From contig CALVMC010000005.1 in assembly GCA_944342015.1 (NCBI GenBank), positions 1 to 64,000 on the forward strand: a DNA stretch of 64,000 nt. The letters run 5' to 3'. The notes beneath the pieces are model-generated. The model worked only from the letters and a program-made list of their open reading frames with translations. It had not been told where the DNA came from and did no database searches. The stretch comes from an uncultured Clostridia bacterium (GTDB lineage Bacteria; Bacillota; Clostridia; Christensenellales; CALVMC01). Both the position numbers and the translations under genes were made by a program. This document shows positions 6,843-16,819 of this stretch, piece by piece (the stretch's first letter is position 1; each line of letters starts with the position of its first letter).

Positions 6843-8219
6843 TTACATTAACAGTGCCCCGTCGTCTCCGTCGATAACTCTGAGTATATTCAATTCTTCG
6901 CCCGTCTTCACGCTTACATAAATATAATAGGTGTTGTCGTCGAGAGAAGCGATAAATTCATAACATAGCGCTTCCTTTCCGCCGTCTAACGGAATAAGGG
7001 CTTTTCTTCCGCCTGTTACATTAAGAGAAGGATTGAGTTTTGCTTTGGCTTCGTCGAGGGTTATCGTCGGCGTTTCGAATTCTCTTTCGGTATGGTTGAA
7101 TATATAAGTCAGAGCCTCGAATCCTATAACGCTTAAATCGTCTGCGGTAATTTTAAGTTTTATCATATCGGGATAAATTATAGTATCGTCCTTTTTAACG
7201 GTGTAATTCACATAAACTACGCTGTTACTGTTTGACGCCCAGACTGCTTCCATATCGCTGTATCCCATTTTTTCAAGGAACTGTCTTCCGGCTTCTGCAC
7301 ACTCTTCCGCCGTGTATACAGGGTCGGTTACTTCTTTAAAAGAACTTATCTCTACAAACTGACCGCCCCTTTCGCTTATCGATATATATGTGCTTTGACC
7401 GTTTAAGTTAGCAGTGTAATTAAGCTGATTGAAATAATTGGTTGATACCGATTGAAAAACTATATCGCTAACATTTGCAAAAGAAAGTTTTTCAGCAATT
7501 ATCTGCGCTCCCTGCTCTTTGGATATTATTTCGCCGCTTAATGCTTTTGCCTCCTTATCGATAAGTCCGTCGCTGAAAGGTCCGTCGTAAATTAAGGTCG
7601 GATATTCTATGGTATTGTTTTCTATTTCCGAAATTATTTCGGTAAAAGGACTTACTTCGAGTTCAAAGGAATCCATAAAAGTAAAGTCGTTGTTAATTAT
7701 ATAAGTTTGCAAAGAGGCAATTTGCTTTCCTATGTTTTTGGTAAGTTCTGCAAAATTACTCATTGTGTTATATTCTTCGTCGGTAAGTTCTTCCCCTGCC
7801 GAAAGTTTCGAGGACAGGGCTTTTGCGTAATCGCCTACCTGATTAAAAAATTTAGAAGTGGCTTCCGTCGAACCGCTGAGTTTTAAAGAAGATAAATTGG
7901 TTTCGGAATTTGCAGCGCTTTTCTCTATTTCGTCGAGAAGTTTAATCTGCATACTCTTTGAAGAAGAGACCTTGAATTTATATAAATCGTTTTCCATAGT
8001 CGTGATTTCCGAAACCAAATCGTAGTAACTTTTCTGATACATATTTTCAAGATTAACCTTATAACTCGATTTGTCGGCGTGATTTGCATAGATAAAGTAT
8101 CCGCTGACACCAAGACCTGCAACGGCAAGGGCAAGCAGTACGGAAATAATTATTATGGCAATTGTTTTGCCTTTATCTCTTTTTTCGATTTTTTCGTTGA
8201 CATAATTTCTGTATTCCAT
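6843..8219 (-). CDS. ypeB: Spore germination protein YpeB
   Basis: 458 residues, matching YpeB in length and organisation: short cytoplasmic N-terminus, one membrane anchor (about 19-43), a helical region, then PepSY-type repeats (SGEIISKEQGAQIIAEKLSF; YTAEECAEAGRQFLEKMGY; ITLDEAKAKLNPSLNV). In Bacillus, YpeB is a spore-coat/inner-membrane protein that stabilises the cortex-lytic enzyme SleB and keeps it inactive until germination. It is encoded directly after sleB, as in Bacillus, with a GGAG ribosome site between the genes (11 bases after the sleB stop). Expression is expected in the forespore. Third gene of the operon with spoIIR and sleB. Confidence 0.9.
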   Translation of the reverse strand: MEYRNYVNEKIEKRDKGKTIAIIIISVLLALAVAGLGVSGYFIYANHADKSSYKVNLENMYQKSYYDLVSEITTMENDLYKFKVSSSKSMQIKLLDEIEKSAANSETNLSSLKLSGSTEATSKFFNQVGDYAKALSSKLSAGEELTDEEYNTMSNFAELTKNIGKQIASLQTYIINNDFTFMDSFELEVSPFTEIISEIENNTIEYPTLIYDGPFSDGLIDKEAKALSGEIISKEQGAQIIAEKLSFANVSDIVFQSVSTNYFNQLNYTANLNGQSTYISISERGGQFVEISSFKEVTDPVYTAEECAEAGRQFLEKMGYSDMEAVWASNSNSVVYVNYTVKKDDTIIYPDMIKLKITADDLSVIGFEALTYIFNHTEREFETPTITLDEAKAKLNPSLNVTGGRKALIPLDGGKEALCYEFIASLDDNTYYIYVSVKTGEELNILRVIDGDDGALLM

Positions 8220-8230
8220 AAACCTATCTC

Positions 8231-8926
8231 CTATACTGCAAAGTTATGATTTCCGATTGAAAGTTTTACCGTTCTTGACCAAATCCAGCTGCTTGTCGCA
8301 GTTGCGGGATTATAGTAGTAAATACAGCCGTTAGTGGGGTCCCAACCGTTAAGAGCGTCTCTTGCCGCACTGTATGCGGTACTATTGGGTTCTAAGTTAA
8401 TCTGTCCGTCGGTAACGGCGGTAAATGCGCCCGGCTGATAAATAACGCCCGCAATAGTGTTCGGAAAACTGCTGTGTTTAACCCTGTTCAGTACTACCGC
8501 CGCTATTGCGACTTGCCCCGTATACGGCTCGCCCCTTGCTTCGGCGTAGACGCATTTGGCAAGAAGATAAAGGTCTGACGAGTTGTAACTGCTGTTAGAC
8601 GAAGACGAACTCGTAAGAGTCATTCCGAGAGCGGCAGCCGTCTCTGCTCCTACGATACCGTCTACTTGCAGGTTATTTACTTTCTGAAAATAAATTACCG
8701 CATTGTATGTCTGAGTGCCGAATATTCCGTCAATGTTTCCCGAATAATAGCCCCAGTTTTTAAGTTTGGTCTGCATGGTTCTGACCTGAGAGCCTGTCAT
8801 TCCTTTTTTTAAAACCGCAGTTTCCGTGCTGTCGCTTCCGTACGGTATGAGCGAAAAGGCAACCGCAGCCGTAACAATCGTCAAAACCATTGCAACGGCG
8901 AAAATACTTTTTGCAACCTTTGTCAT
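8231..8926 (-). CDS. sleB: Cortex-lytic enzyme SleB (cell wall hydrolase)
   Basis: 231 residues. An N-terminal signal/anchor (about 5-27) is followed by a peptidoglycan-binding repeat at about 38-93 (LKKGMTGSQVRTMQTKLKNW...DGIFGTQTYNAV) and a Hydrolase_2 lytic transglycosylase domain at about 118-231 (KCVYAEARGEPYTGQVAIAA, with the catalytic Glu in YAEARGEP). It cleaves muramic-delta-lactam-containing cortex peptidoglycan during spore germination. The ribosome site AAGGAG lies inside the last codons of spoIIR and only 4 bases separate the spoIIR stop from this ATG, so translation is coupled. YpeB, its partner, follows. Confidence 0.93.
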   Translation of the reverse strand: MTKVAKSIFAVAMVLTIVTAAVAFSLIPYGSDSTETAVLKKGMTGSQVRTMQTKLKNWGYYSGNIDGIFGTQTYNAVIYFQKVNNLQVDGIVGAETAAALGMTLTSSSSSNSSYNSSDLYLLAKCVYAEARGEPYTGQVAIAAVVLNRVKHSSFPNTIAGVIYQPGAFTAVTDGQINLEPNSTAYSAARDALNGWDPTNGCIYYYNPATATSSWIWSRTVKLSIGNHNFAV

Positions 8927-8930
8927 AAAA

Positions 8931-9458
8931 TTACTCCTTTTCGGTAAGTTTTTTATACCATTCGTAAATAAAAGATTTATATTCGGCCTCGCTGTCTGTG
9001 GAAACGAAACATAAAGGCGGAAAAACCACGCACCACCAGTTATCGCCCTTTCCCGAACCTAACTCGACGATTAATGCGTCGTAAACATCTTCGGGAAGCA
9101 AGAGTCCTTCGTAACTTCTTGCGGGAAACTCTTCCTGCCTTACAGAAGCCTTTGCCGAATATGTAAATCCTTGACTTGATAGAACTTTGTCCGCTATCGA
9201 CTCTATTTCGGAAATATTTTTTTCCACTATGCTTATAGCTTCTTTTTTGCTCGACACGCCTTTAAGTTTTTCGGTAAGAAAAAGGACAATTTCGTCCTTT
9301 ACCGCATACTTCACGCTTTGAGCCTCTTCCAAATTGCTGTCAGCTCTTATATGTATTCTTAAAAAATCAGCATTTGACTTTGTTCCTTGTAAAACGCAGC
9401 CTGTCGCAATAACGACAACCGATATAACTAAAATTAAAACTAAAATGCTTTTTTTCAT
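8931..9458 (-). CDS. spoIIR: Stage II sporulation protein R
   Basis: 175 residues. A hydrophobic N-terminus (about 5-22, with a lipobox-like ATGC) is followed by the SpoIIR core: LRIHIRADSNLEEAQSVKY near the start and the family hallmark KGDNWWCVVFPPLCF near the end. SpoIIR is made in the forespore under sigma-F, secreted into the intermembrane space, and triggers SpoIIGA to process pro-sigma-E in the mother cell. The ATG at 9458 follows GAGGGACGG; the in-frame TTG at 9476 lies before that site and is not used. Here it heads an operon with the germination genes sleB and ypeB, an unusual partnership. Confidence 0.93.
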   Translation of the reverse strand: MKKSILVLILVISVVVIATGCVLQGTKSNADFLRIHIRADSNLEEAQSVKYAVKDEIVLFLTEKLKGVSSKKEAISIVEKNISEIESIADKVLSSQGFTYSAKASVRQEEFPARSYEGLLLPEDVYDALIVELGSGKGDNWWCVVFPPLCFVSTDSEAEYKSFIYEWYKKLTEKE

Positions 9459-9574
9459 ATTCCGTCCCTCTTTCAAGCGATTATTGACAGAAAGGATTTT
9501 TTTATACCGGAAAACAAAAAATGAAAAAAGTTGAAAAATAAAATTTTTTGTGTTAATATTTCTATATTGTTGTT

Positions 9575-10378
9575 ATGAAAAAATATCTGAAAATTTTAAC
9601 GGCTTTCCTGCTTTTGATTTCGGTTTTTTGTTTGGCAGGTTGCAATCCTAAGGCAAAAGTACAGTATATATCATCTTCGAAAGAAGGCGATGCGGTATAT
9701 GTTGCCGAAATGATTTGTGAAAAGAATCTTTCTTCGACCGTATCGATTTACAGCAGCTATTCGGAAAACGGGGAAAATGTTTACGGTACGGGAATTATAC
9801 TTACCGAAAACGGGTATGTTTTAACCACCGTTTACAGCATATTCGGAAGTTATACCGAGCGTGAAATTTCTGCCCTTCCGATATTGAGCGGTAACATAGT
9901 TGTTTCCAACAACGGCAGTTTCGTTAAGGTAAATCTTGCGGTAGTGAATATCGATTTTAAATCAGGTCTTGCAATTCTTAAAATTACCGATAACGATAAG
10001 GTTTTTGTCCCCGTTACTTTGGAAACGGAAAACCTTCCCGTTGTCGGAGAATACACCGCCTCTCTCGTGAATGCCAAGGCTATGGGAATATCGGCGGTTG
10101 AAGGTTATATATCCAAGCTTTATGTAACAAGAAATCTGAGCGACACTGAAATTACGGTAAATAATCTTATGCAGGTAGACATCAGGGCAAACGAAGGTTC
10201 TTTCGGAGGCGGGCTTTTCAACAATAAAGGCAGATTGACGGGAATAATATTAGACAGGCAAAATACCGCAAATACGAGCTCACTCGACCCGATATACAAT
10301 ATAACATACGCATACGACATAGAAAGGATAATCGATTATATCAATACCGGAAATTACGGATTTAAAATAGGAGCATAA
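9575..10378 (+). CDS. HtrA-like pseudoprotease lipoprotein
   Basis: 267 residues with a lipoprotein signal ending LAGC (lipidated Cys23). The body aligns residue by residue with the next gene, a trypsin-fold HtrA-type protease, but all three catalytic positions differ: the His position is Tyr87 (VLTTVYSI versus VITNAHVI), the Asp position is Gly131 (FKSGLAIL versus YADLALL), and the nucleophile Ser is Phe210 (EGSFGGGLF versus GNSGGPVF). The fold-forming glycines are kept, so the protein should fold but cannot cleave by the usual mechanism. It may bind substrates or regulate its active neighbour at the cell surface. A TATATT -10 box ends 6 bases before the ATG and there is no Shine-Dalgarno site. 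Two bases separate it from the next gene. Confidence 0.85.
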   Translation: MKKYLKILTAFLLLISVFCLAGCNPKAKVQYISSSKEGDAVYVAEMICEKNLSSTVSIYSSYSENGENVYGTGIILTENGYVLTTVYSIFGSYTEREISALPILSGNIVVSNNGSFVKVNLAVVNIDFKSGLAILKITDNDKVFVPVTLETENLPVVGEYTASLVNAKAMGISAVEGYISKLYVTRNLSDTEITVNNLMQVDIRANEGSFGGGLFNNKGRLTGIILDRQNTANTSSLDPIYNITYAYDIERIIDYINTGNYGFKIGA

Positions 10379-10380
10379 CT

Positions 10381-11220
10381 ATGAAAAGATTGGGAAAACT
10401 ATTTATGCTTTCAGCAGCCTTAATACTCTCGATAGCAATCTTTGCAGGCTGCACTACAACCGTTACGGAAAAGGTTTATGTGGAAAACGGCTTTGTTTAC
10501 GAAGCGGAAAACATAGCCAAAGAAAATATAAGTTCCTGTCTTGCGATAGAAGTAATTTACGACAGTATTCTTGCGACCAAAACCTTGACGGGTTCGGGAT
10601 TTATAATATCCGAAGACGGCTATGTAATAACGAACGCCCATGTAATTTACGGCGACGATTGGGAAGGAGCAGGCTCGACATATCCGCAGAATCTGAAATC
10701 CATCACGGGAACAATCGACAACGGCGACGGCACTACGCAAAGTTATAACTTGACGCTCGTTGCAAAATACAACCCTTACGCAGACCTTGCACTTTTGAAA
10801 ATGAATTTAGGCGAAGGGGAAACGGTAAAAGCCGTTAAGTTCAGAGATTCGTCTACTGCAAAATACGGAGAAGCCGTGCTTATGATAGGAAACCCCAAAG
10901 GACTCGGAATATCTGCGGTAAGAGGAATAATTTCCCAGCCGTCTTTAACCGACAATTCGTCGTCGCCTGCAAAAGAATACATTCTTCTCGATATTGCAAT
11001 GAACCACGGAAACAGCGGAGGGCCGGTATTCGACAAGAACGGATTCGTAATCGGCGTTGCGGCAATGAGATATAAAACGAGCGCTGCAAGCTCTTCCGAT
11101 TCGAGCATTGACCTTGCCGTGGGGATAGGATATGCGGTACCGTCGCTGCTTGTACAAAAATTTATAAGTACATTGAATCTTGAAGGACTTGAAGTCGAAT
11201 TCAGCGTAATCGAAGAATAA
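10381..11220 (+). CDS. HtrA-type trypsin-like serine protease lipoprotein
   Basis: 279 residues. The lipobox IFAGC gives a lipidated Cys24, so the protein should sit on the outer face of the membrane. A trypsin-like domain spans about residues 45-275 with an intact triad: His87 in VITNAHV, Asp135 in YADLALL and Ser212 in GNSGGPVF. Unlike DegP/HtrA it ends after the protease domain with no PDZ domain. The HtrA family degrades or processes misfolded exported proteins. The ribosome site AGGAG is in the 3' end of the preceding pseudoprotease gene, 2 bases away, so the two are co-expressed. The S51-type peptidase gene follows 7 bases later and probably belongs to the same operon. Confidence 0.88.
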   Translation: MKRLGKLFMLSAALILSIAIFAGCTTTVTEKVYVENGFVYEAENIAKENISSCLAIEVIYDSILATKTLTGSGFIISEDGYVITNAHVIYGDDWEGAGSTYPQNLKSITGTIDNGDGTTQSYNLTLVAKYNPYADLALLKMNLGEGETVKAVKFRDSSTAKYGEAVLMIGNPKGLGISAVRGIISQPSLTDNSSSPAKEYILLDIAMNHGNSGGPVFDKNGFVIGVAAMRYKTSAASSSDSSIDLAVGIGYAVPSLLVQKFISTLNLEGLEVEFSVIEE

Positions 11221-11227
11221 TTTATCT

Positions 11228-11932
11228 ATGGAAGAAAATCTTTATATAATGAGCGGCGGAACCGTCCCTGCCGAATTTAACAGATTTTTATATATGAAAA
11301 CAGCCGAGTATAAAAACGGCGTTAAAAATCCTTGTTTAAGGAAATATTCAAACGGTGAAATTTCAAACATAATCGGACAAATCGGTACCGATAACAATGC
11401 GGCGGCTTTTACCGAAAAGCCGGTCGCTCTTATTATGCCTCAGGCGTCCTACGAAGGGAAAAGACAGGTAAACGCATTTTACAGAGATTATAAAAAAGCG
11501 GGCTTTAAACCGTCTTCGATACTTTTCAAAAACGGAGAAATGAACGACGAAGAGATATTAAAAAGAATAAACAATGCCTCTTTGATATATATAAGCGGCG
11601 GCAGACTCGATATTCTTCTTGAAAGCTTTAAAAGCAAAGGAATAGACAAAATTCTGAAATCTTTAAAAGGAAAGATTATAGTCGGCGTTTCTGCGGGGGC
11701 TTCCTGTCTTTTCGAATACGCAGTAAGCGACTGCAATATGGAAGAGTCCTCAAAATACACTCTCATAAAAGGATTAGGACTTATTAAAGGTATATACTGC
11801 CCCCACGCAGAAGAAGAGAAAAGAGAAGAGGCTCTTAAAAACAAGGATTTAATTTTCAAAGACGCAGACAAAAGTATTTTCGATAAACTTTCTCTTACAA
11901 AAAACATATCGGAAGAAGTTATAATTATCTGA
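11228..11932 (+). CDS. Peptidase S51 family (dipeptidase E-like)
   Basis: 234 residues, cytoplasmic. It has the glutamine-amidotransferase-like fold of peptidase family S51: ISGGR at about 122-126, the nucleophile elbow GVSAGA with Ser155, and a later CPHA that matches the family His position. S51 enzymes include alpha-aspartyl dipeptidase (PepE) and cyanophycinase; the substrate here is not determined. There is only a weak purine stretch before the ATG, and the gene starts 7 bases after the HtrA-like gene, so it is likely translated by coupling. It could recycle peptides, but a direct link to the surface protease is only inferred from the operon. Confidence 0.78.
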   Translation: MEENLYIMSGGTVPAEFNRFLYMKTAEYKNGVKNPCLRKYSNGEISNIIGQIGTDNNAAAFTEKPVALIMPQASYEGKRQVNAFYRDYKKAGFKPSSILFKNGEMNDEEILKRINNASLIYISGGRLDILLESFKSKGIDKILKSLKGKIIVGVSAGASCLFEYAVSDCNMEESSKYTLIKGLGLIKGIYCPHAEEEKREEALKNKDLIFKDADKSIFDKLSLTKNISEEVIII

Positions 11933-15176: not shown

Positions 15177-16694
15177 TTAATCCAGCGATATTTTTCTGAA
15201 AATACACACAGGCATATTACTTTCGACAGGCTCTTTAAGGTCGGGATTTTGTTTTAAAATTTCTTCGGGCTTCATATTAAGAGCCTTTGCGATATCCCAC
15301 ATTGTTTCGCCTTTTTCTGCAAGATATACGCTTATTGCGTTTTTGGAAGATATTTTATCTTCTCCTTCTTCTAAGGCGGAAATATACTCGATACTGCCGC
15401 TGTCGAAAATTTCGAGGCAGAATTTAAGTTCTGCGATAGCTTCGATTTCTTTATCTCTTTTTGCCCTTGCATAAATGTTTGAAAGGGTAACCGTACCTTT
15501 TATTTTGCTGTTTGCGGTAACATTATCGGCTCTGAGCTCTATCGAATAGGGAAGTTCAACCTGAACGGAATTGATATCTGAGTTATCGTCTTCGTAAATT
15601 ACCGCTGCGCTGACTACGCCTTCTGCCGTTACGGAGTCTTTATTCGGAATAAGATTTACAAGGACGCTTTTGCTTGCGCTGGTTGTAATTATGTCTTTGA
15701 TAGCCGTCATCTGAACATCAAGCTGAGCGGTTCCGTTAATTTTTTCATCGAAAAATTTACAGCCCGTATAATATTCGGTTTCTTTAACAAGTGTTTCCTT
15801 TATCAACTCTTTTTCCGCACAGTAAATATCGCTGACAACTTCTATACTTTTGTCTTCGTAAGTATTTGCGCAGATTTTAAGCTGTATCTGAGCCTTGATA
15901 AGATTATTTGTTTCGTTTCCGCTGAGAATGATTTTGCTGTCGGTAATTTCGGCTCTGACGCTTACCTTCTGACCGGCGAATGCGCCGTTAACGGTAACTT
16001 CTTCGCTGAAAGGCATTGAAAAACATTTGGTAATTATACCGGTAGTTCCTTTATATATAATGTCGGTAATAATTTCGCCCGAAACAAGCACGCTGTCAAT
16101 ACCGCACTTGATATCGGTAACGACTGCCGCACTGTCAAAAAGAAGCACTTTATCTATATTGGTATTTGTTTCGAACTCTTCGGCAATTTCGAAGCTGCCC
16201 TCGCCGCTTCCCGTTAAATTCTGAACTCTTATGTCCTTAATCTGTTTAAGACAGTTATCGGAAACATCTACAAGAACTTTCATTTCGTCAAAAGACAGCT
16301 CGTCGATATTAAGTTCTGTTAATGCCATAAGCTTAATCTGATTATCGGTTGCGCTGACAGAAATATCCCCGACAGACGCAGTCGGAATGATTTTACTTTG
16401 CAAAGCAACGCCTTCCTGCTGAATGGTATCGGTGAACTCGGCAATATAATCGAGAGAAAGTACCTCGTTTTCCGAATCGAGATAGAGTACCTTGAAATTC
16501 ACAAGTCCGTTAAGTTTGATTTCGTCGACCAATGCCTCTGAATTTGTAATTCTTGCAGCACCTTCGACTCCGAGTATTTTTTTAATAACTTTTTGTTCAT
16601 GAGGGGAAATATTACACCCTACCGAAATCTGCTTTTTGGCAAGAGATTTTCTGCCGTCGATTTTTATATTATCGAAATTTGGTTGAATATACAT
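15177..16694 (-). CDS. sipL: SPOCS-domain/LysM spore morphogenesis protein (SipL-like)
   Basis: 505 residues. Repeated DUF3794 (SPOCS) units fill residues 1-440 (for example KQISVGCNISPHEQKVIKK and LFDSAAVVTDIKCGIDSVLV), and a single LysM domain ends the protein (YLAEKGETMWDIAKALNMKP). The length and order match SipL of Clostridioides difficile, which binds the coat ATPase SpoIVA through its LysM domain to attach the coat and drive engulfment. The start is the ATG at 16694 with GGAGG seven bases upstream; the open frame extends further but without a start signal. It would be made in the mother cell. ispE lies downstream, and the divergent veg gene upstream. Confidence 0.85.
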   Translation of the reverse strand: MYIQPNFDNIKIDGRKSLAKKQISVGCNISPHEQKVIKKILGVEGAARITNSEALVDEIKLNGLVNFKVLYLDSENEVLSLDYIAEFTDTIQQEGVALQSKIIPTASVGDISVSATDNQIKLMALTELNIDELSFDEMKVLVDVSDNCLKQIKDIRVQNLTGSGEGSFEIAEEFETNTNIDKVLLFDSAAVVTDIKCGIDSVLVSGEIITDIIYKGTTGIITKCFSMPFSEEVTVNGAFAGQKVSVRAEITDSKIILSGNETNNLIKAQIQLKICANTYEDKSIEVVSDIYCAEKELIKETLVKETEYYTGCKFFDEKINGTAQLDVQMTAIKDIITTSASKSVLVNLIPNKDSVTAEGVVSAAVIYEDDNSDINSVQVELPYSIELRADNVTANSKIKGTVTLSNIYARAKRDKEIEAIAELKFCLEIFDSGSIEYISALEEGEDKISSKNAISVYLAEKGETMWDIAKALNMKPEEILKQNPDLKEPVESNMPVCIFRKISLD

Positions 16695-16819
16695 AATTGC
16701 CTCCAAAGATAAATTCAATATATTATACTTTGAAAGGTAAAATTTATTACAAAAATTTGAAATTTGTTTTTTTCGGTATTTTTTCCGCAAAAAGGGAAAT
16801 ACTTTTTTTGGAGGCGTCT

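Follow-up and report, generated by a model that had tools for sequence, protein, structure and literature searches.

Why genomes retain dead enzymes beside live ones is an open question, and two adjacent genes of an uncultured Clostridia bacterium raise it for the HtrA-type proteases. The genes, here called A and B, lie in the window, that is, the whole 64,000-nucleotide stretch of contig CALVMC010000005.1 that was analysed. An earlier note described them as tandem HtrA-type lipoproteins, one with a catalytic triad and one without, followed by an S51-type peptidase, and regarded A as a retained pseudoprotease rather than a gene in decay, one that could regulate B or present substrates to it. 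The features of the locus are as follows.

9531–9560, plus strand: likely extended −10 promoter of the A-B operon (TTGAAA, 17 nt, TG.TAATAT), from a consensus scan and from identity within 9523–9600 between two species
9575–10378, plus strand: gene A, HtrA-fold lipoprotein pseudoprotease of 267 aa; Y87/G131/F210 instead of H/D/S; lipobox Cys23; no PDZ domain
10369–10373, plus strand: Shine-Dalgarno-like AGGAG for B, within the final codons of A, read from the sequence
10381–11220, plus strand: gene B, HtrA-type serine protease lipoprotein of 279 aa; triad H87/D135/S212; no PDZ domain
11228–11932, plus strand: Peptidase S51 family protein (dipeptidase E / cyanophycinase type), third gene in the block; GVSAGAS nucleophile motif

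Catalytic residues and fold of A and B

Both open reading frames and the S51 gene are present as described. Pfam Trypsin_2 extends across the whole domain of each protein of the pair (48 bits in A and 91 bits in B, with a cut-off of 27.6), and each has a lipobox Cys (LAGC / FAGC). Neither protein has a Pfam match to a PDZ domain; both stop shortly past the protease domain, and the PDZ that characterizes S1C proteases C-terminal to that domain is absent from both. The NCBIfam HtrA models match the protease part of A and B only, far under cut-off. The genes are tightly spaced, with a 2-nt gap between the stop of A and the start of B, and the S51 gene starts 7 nt past the end of B. Its product matches PF03575 at 78.5 bits and has the GxSAGA nucleophile motif in the form GVSAGAS.

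In a BLASTP alignment, A and B are identical at 71 of 241 positions (29%, E 3e-17). The alignment contains 18 gap positions, so the earlier claim of almost no gaps was a slight overstatement, but around the three catalytic motifs it is unambiguous, and the residues assigned to the triad positions (Tyr87, Gly131 and Phe210 in A; His87, Asp135 and Ser212 in B) are correct. The contexts in A are LTTV-Y-SIFG, DFKS-G-LAIL and NEGS-F-GGGL. When A is aligned with about 46 other HtrA domains, positions 87, 131 and 210 fall in the near-invariant H, D and S columns. B therefore has the His-Asp-Ser triad of an S1C protease and A lacks it. There is no histidine in the entire A protein of the window, and thus no alternative His-based triad is possible.

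AlphaFold2 models of the two proteins, built on an alignment of 50 HtrA-type domains, are confident for both A (pLDDT 83.9, pTM 0.80) and B (pLDDT 81.7, pTM 0.78). The top PDB match of the A model is DegS (Z 26.2, 2.4 Å over 200 residues) and that of the B model is HtrA1 (Z 27.7). The models, compared by secondary-structure register and not by residue-by-residue coordinate superposition, place three elements in the same register, namely the short helix that carries position 87, the strand that follows 131/135 and the loop that carries 210/212, so that realignment restores no triad. A misalignment concealing a triad is ruled out, since two MAFFT modes, the 50-sequence HtrA alignment and the structure registers agree and A has no His. 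By both sequence and models, A and B have the HtrA (S1C) double beta-barrel fold. With His, Asp and Ser all replaced and no His anywhere, the sequence of the window's A implies that it cannot work as a serine protease.

Distribution and maintenance of the pair

If A were a chance remnant, it should be truncated or absent at random in related genomes. In three genera of two families it is intact throughout: all 11 genomes examined have a dead copy upstream and a live one directly after it. These are two genomes of family f1 (genus g1, to which the window belongs), three of g89 and six of g6, the latter two genera belonging to family f6 of the same order. The spacing between A and B ranges from −11 to +14 nt, i.e., from an overlap of 11 nt to a gap of at most 14 nt, in 11 of 11. 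Thus, the proposed two-gene block holds in both f1 genomes and in nine genomes of two f6 genera, and an inactive paralogue is conserved beside an active one, as in a MamE/MamO-like pair, in every one of them. The gene order is A-B preceded by an epimerase-like gene in g6, and the same followed by S51 in g89, where the epimerase-like gene has no Pfam match. The three-gene A-B-S51 block is common to f1 and g89.

Other genera of f6 differ. The examined genomes of g36, g51 and g73 have one live copy and no A; in g36 and several g73 genomes the live copy lies directly 3' of the epimerase-like gene, with no room for an A remnant. Profile searches with the g6 and g89 A copies across 396 genomes of the order found no dead/live pair in other genera, and a scan of genome contigs yielded nothing beyond the sister genome and a single unrelated HtrA. 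Weak Trypsin_2 matches in G025 and G040 were rejected as dead partners; they are other trypsin-like proteins that retain the serine motif.

Several further observations concern the surroundings of these genes. The protein upstream of the f6 protease genes is conserved, 280–300 aa long (L115 4591–5499, L114 4190–5047, L061 652–1497), and aldose-epimerase-like by eye; two copies tested have no Pfam match. In two g89 genomes (L108 5072–5857, L109 5809–6588) the live protease has no lipobox, and an N-terminal membrane helix apparently anchors it instead; its dead partner is still a lipoprotein. The window itself is rich in sporulation genes around the pair (15177–16790 and 6843–9476, both on the minus strand): spoIIR, sleB and ypeB lie just upstream and divergent, and a SipL/SPOCS-LysM protein is encoded a few kb downstream. 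The same genome has a second tandem of HtrA-type lipoproteins on contig C1 (L003 343–2517, L002 1048–2463), with both triads intact and longer C-termini. In the 724-aa protein of this tandem, long collagen-like (GEKGDTGAQG) repeats at the N-terminus alternate with SAYQ..GTEQEWLESLKG repeats.

The selection acting on the pair could be estimated by comparing the window's genome with G001, the only other known genome of f1, in which the A-B-S51 block recurs in the same surroundings (the same genes are on CASFOZ010000001.1). The dN/dS of A is 0.113 (bootstrap 0.069–0.179), with values up to 0.13 elsewhere in the analysis of these two genomes, and that of B is 0.109 (bootstrap 0.053–0.189). The S51 gene is under looser constraint (0.31). 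A is therefore under strong purifying selection equal to that on B; it is a maintained gene and not a decaying one, which bears out the earlier view of it as a retained pseudoprotease.

Conservation extends to the start of the operon. A stretch of 57 bp around the promoter and start of A, comprising the last 52 bases before the start and the first codons, is identical between the two f1 species, where about 29% neutral difference is expected; given the observed synonymous distance, such identity is hardly obtainable by neutral drift. The candidate promoter lies in this stretch, although matches in the consensus scan are not above chance by count. No Shine-Dalgarno sequence is present upstream of A (9531–9575), and only about 15 nt separate the likely −10 box from the ATG, so that the mRNA of A may be nearly leaderless. 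From the gene arrangement, A is very probably translated together with B.

Sequence pattern and origin of the dead copies

The residues at the H/D/S positions of the A copies are as follows.

g1: YGF, YGF
g89: TGT, QGT, RGS (in the RGS copy the surrounding GNSGG motif is destroyed)
g6: AGI, AGL, QGI, SGV, GGV, HDA

All 19 active relatives (11 B copies and 8 single copies) have HDS. The catalytic Ser is lost in each of the 11 A copies and all three triad residues in 10. The His and Ser positions vary freely, and Asp is replaced by Gly in 10 of 11; no other column is conserved among the A copies (at least 9 of 11) while differing from the active proteins. Most A copies also lack T84/N85, the G170-N171-P172 loop and N208-G210-N211. 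Retained, as had been claimed for the window's A, are the scaffold glycines (73, 163, 225) and the lipid anchor, the lipobox Cys being present in 11 of 11. Of the three g89 A copies, two go unmatched by Pfam and one scores under the cut-off, but profile-profile comparison recognises the A copies (probability 99.0 for g89 and 99.7 for g6).

The HDA copy, from the g6 genome G264 (L114 5070–5954), keeps His and Asp, and only its Ser is replaced, by Ala (CCAGG for GNSGG). Judged by these residues, it is a plausible intermediate and possibly an early stage of inactivation. Its mature part contains 8 Cys.

The nearest profile to an A is always the B of the same genus or an active relative of that B, and never the A of another genus. 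For example, A of g6 scores 117 against B of g6 and 23 against A of g89, and cross-genus A-A scores range between 23 and 43. The tree unites A with B within g6 (99/98) and likewise within g89 (93/85). An AU test in which the unplaceable f1 A was left out and signal peptides were trimmed rules out that the A copies of g6 and g89 form one clade (p 0.003); with all rows in, a single origin of all A copies is not rejected (p 0.124). The f1 copy cannot be placed (p 0.263), and given the shared A-B-S51 synteny, f1 and g89 could share an A origin. Since one origin of the g6 and g89 copies is rejected, the dead/live pairing appears to have arisen at least twice, gene conversion aside. The A of G264 branches with the other g6 copies, which indicates that the Asp-to-Gly change also occurred more than once. 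Because of long branches, all these inferences on origin are weaker than their numbers imply. Over long distances A evolves faster than B, as reflected by its longer branches.

Proposed role and comparison with known systems

HtrA proteases are trimers built from the protease domain. We propose, at about even chances, that A is a retained, catalytically dead HtrA-fold lipoprotein that acts as a non-catalytic partner of the active protease B. The two proteins would be made together, be exposed at the outer side of the cytoplasmic membrane, and associate with each other. A would then set the activity, assembly or substrate access of B, replacing the role of the PDZ domains missing from B, as inactive MamO switches on MamE; control of B is most likely what A does. 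The location of A directly upstream of B, with the Shine-Dalgarno-like site of B inside A, supports the partnership. The emergence of a dead and live pair at least twice among relatives suggests that the dead copy has its own job, probably that of controlling the live one. A partner is not indispensable to every B-type protease, as g73, g36 and g51 have a single live copy and no A, and the faster evolution of A could also mean an unrelated function.

It is unlikely that A instead serves as a substrate adaptor or chaperone-like holder, which would bind unfolded or particular secreted proteins and pass them to B or protect them, leaving B itself unchanged. HtrA proteins combine chaperone and protease roles (PMC12826053), and A is lipid-anchored, encoded with B and retains the scaffold glycines. 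However, it has no PDZ or other substrate-binding domain, bulky aromatics stand at the cleft in g1, and most A copies have lost the GNP loop as well as the N-x-G-N motifs. In the window's A the cleft would be filled by Tyr and Phe, which makes a decoy role through substrate binding in the cleft less likely.

We consider it similarly improbable that A is repurposed for a function independent of B, such as binding to a cell-wall component or some ligand, so that the two genes would share no more than their expression. A does diverge fast and is strongly different in each genus (the A-A profile scores given above), and MamO gained metal binding besides its effect on MamE (PMC4794232). Yet the feature constant over at least two origins is that a live paralogue follows immediately downstream, an arrangement for which an unrelated function would have no need, and metal binding through a MamO-type di-His site is excluded for the window's A by its lack of His.

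An extension of the partner model, which we regard as quite doubtful, is that the f1 pair acts on spore germination. The Bacillus serine endopeptidase HtrC cleaves YpeB (PMC13393411), possibly freeing the cortex-lytic enzyme SleB, and in both f1 genomes A-B is adjacent to and divergent from spoIIR-sleB-ypeB. However, ypeB is on a different contig from the pair in g6 and g89 and is also found in genera without A. The YpeB link is thus confined to f1 and could be chance; a functional link across all pair-bearing genomes is unsupported. Finally, it is scarcely credible that A is a decaying duplicate heading for loss, as the missing triad and long branches might suggest, since random decay is ruled out by the dN/dS shared with B, by reading frames intact in 11 of 11 genomes, including pairs near synonymous saturation, and by the identical promoter/start stretch.

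The partner reading can be generalized, although we would sooner expect the broader statement to fail than to hold: PDZ-less HtrA lipoproteins of this order may repeatedly evolve an obligate dead regulatory subunit by upstream tandem duplication, with an inactivation that can start at Ser, a convergent Asp-to-Gly change coming afterwards. If true, this would be a second independent natural series of recurrent protease-pseudoprotease pairing, outside magnetosomes.

Several known systems can be compared with A and B. Deg5 and Deg8 of plant thylakoids are both regarded as active proteases, unlike A. They resemble the pair as two different HtrA paralogues that work together (PMC3640471). DegS, DegP and HtrA1 (S1C) share the protease-domain fold (VIA Z 26–28) and the Trypsin_2 profile, but A and B have a lipoprotein anchor and no PDZ, and A lacks H, D and S. 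HtrC is an HtrA-type protease acting on YpeB, and the f1 pair adjoins sleB-ypeB; however, this adjacency is found only in f1, cleavage of YpeB by B would be by analogy only, and the available part of the source (PMC13393411) mentions no pseudoprotease partner for HtrC. No account of degenerate HtrA lipoproteins in Firmicutes turned up in a search of the literature.

The closest precedent is MamO/MamE, the sole worked-out bacterial case found of a dead HtrA protease kept beside a live one. MamO has lost its activity and promotes MamE-dependent proteolysis, and the active/inactive HtrA pairs of magnetotactic bacteria reflect three independent degenerations (PMC4794232). Like A and B, MamO/MamE and the inactive MamE paralogues are active and inactive HtrA-fold proteases encoded together, with a degenerate triad in the inactive member and repeated evolution (PMC4794232). 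A does not show the surface di-His metal site and the C-terminal transporter-like domain of the MamO family; it has no His and no second domain in its 267 aa. A and B are short lipoproteins of a different phylum and context, A lacks the transporter domain, PDZ and di-His metal site, and whereas H and D of the triad survive in MamO, no triad residue does in the window's A. Beside the magnetosome case, the locus thus places an unrelated series from uncultured Clostridia-type bacteria, one that had at least two independent origins and shows both a recurrent Asp-to-Gly signature and, in G264, a possible intermediate. What a dead subunit contributes to a live one is directly testable there, on just two small genes.
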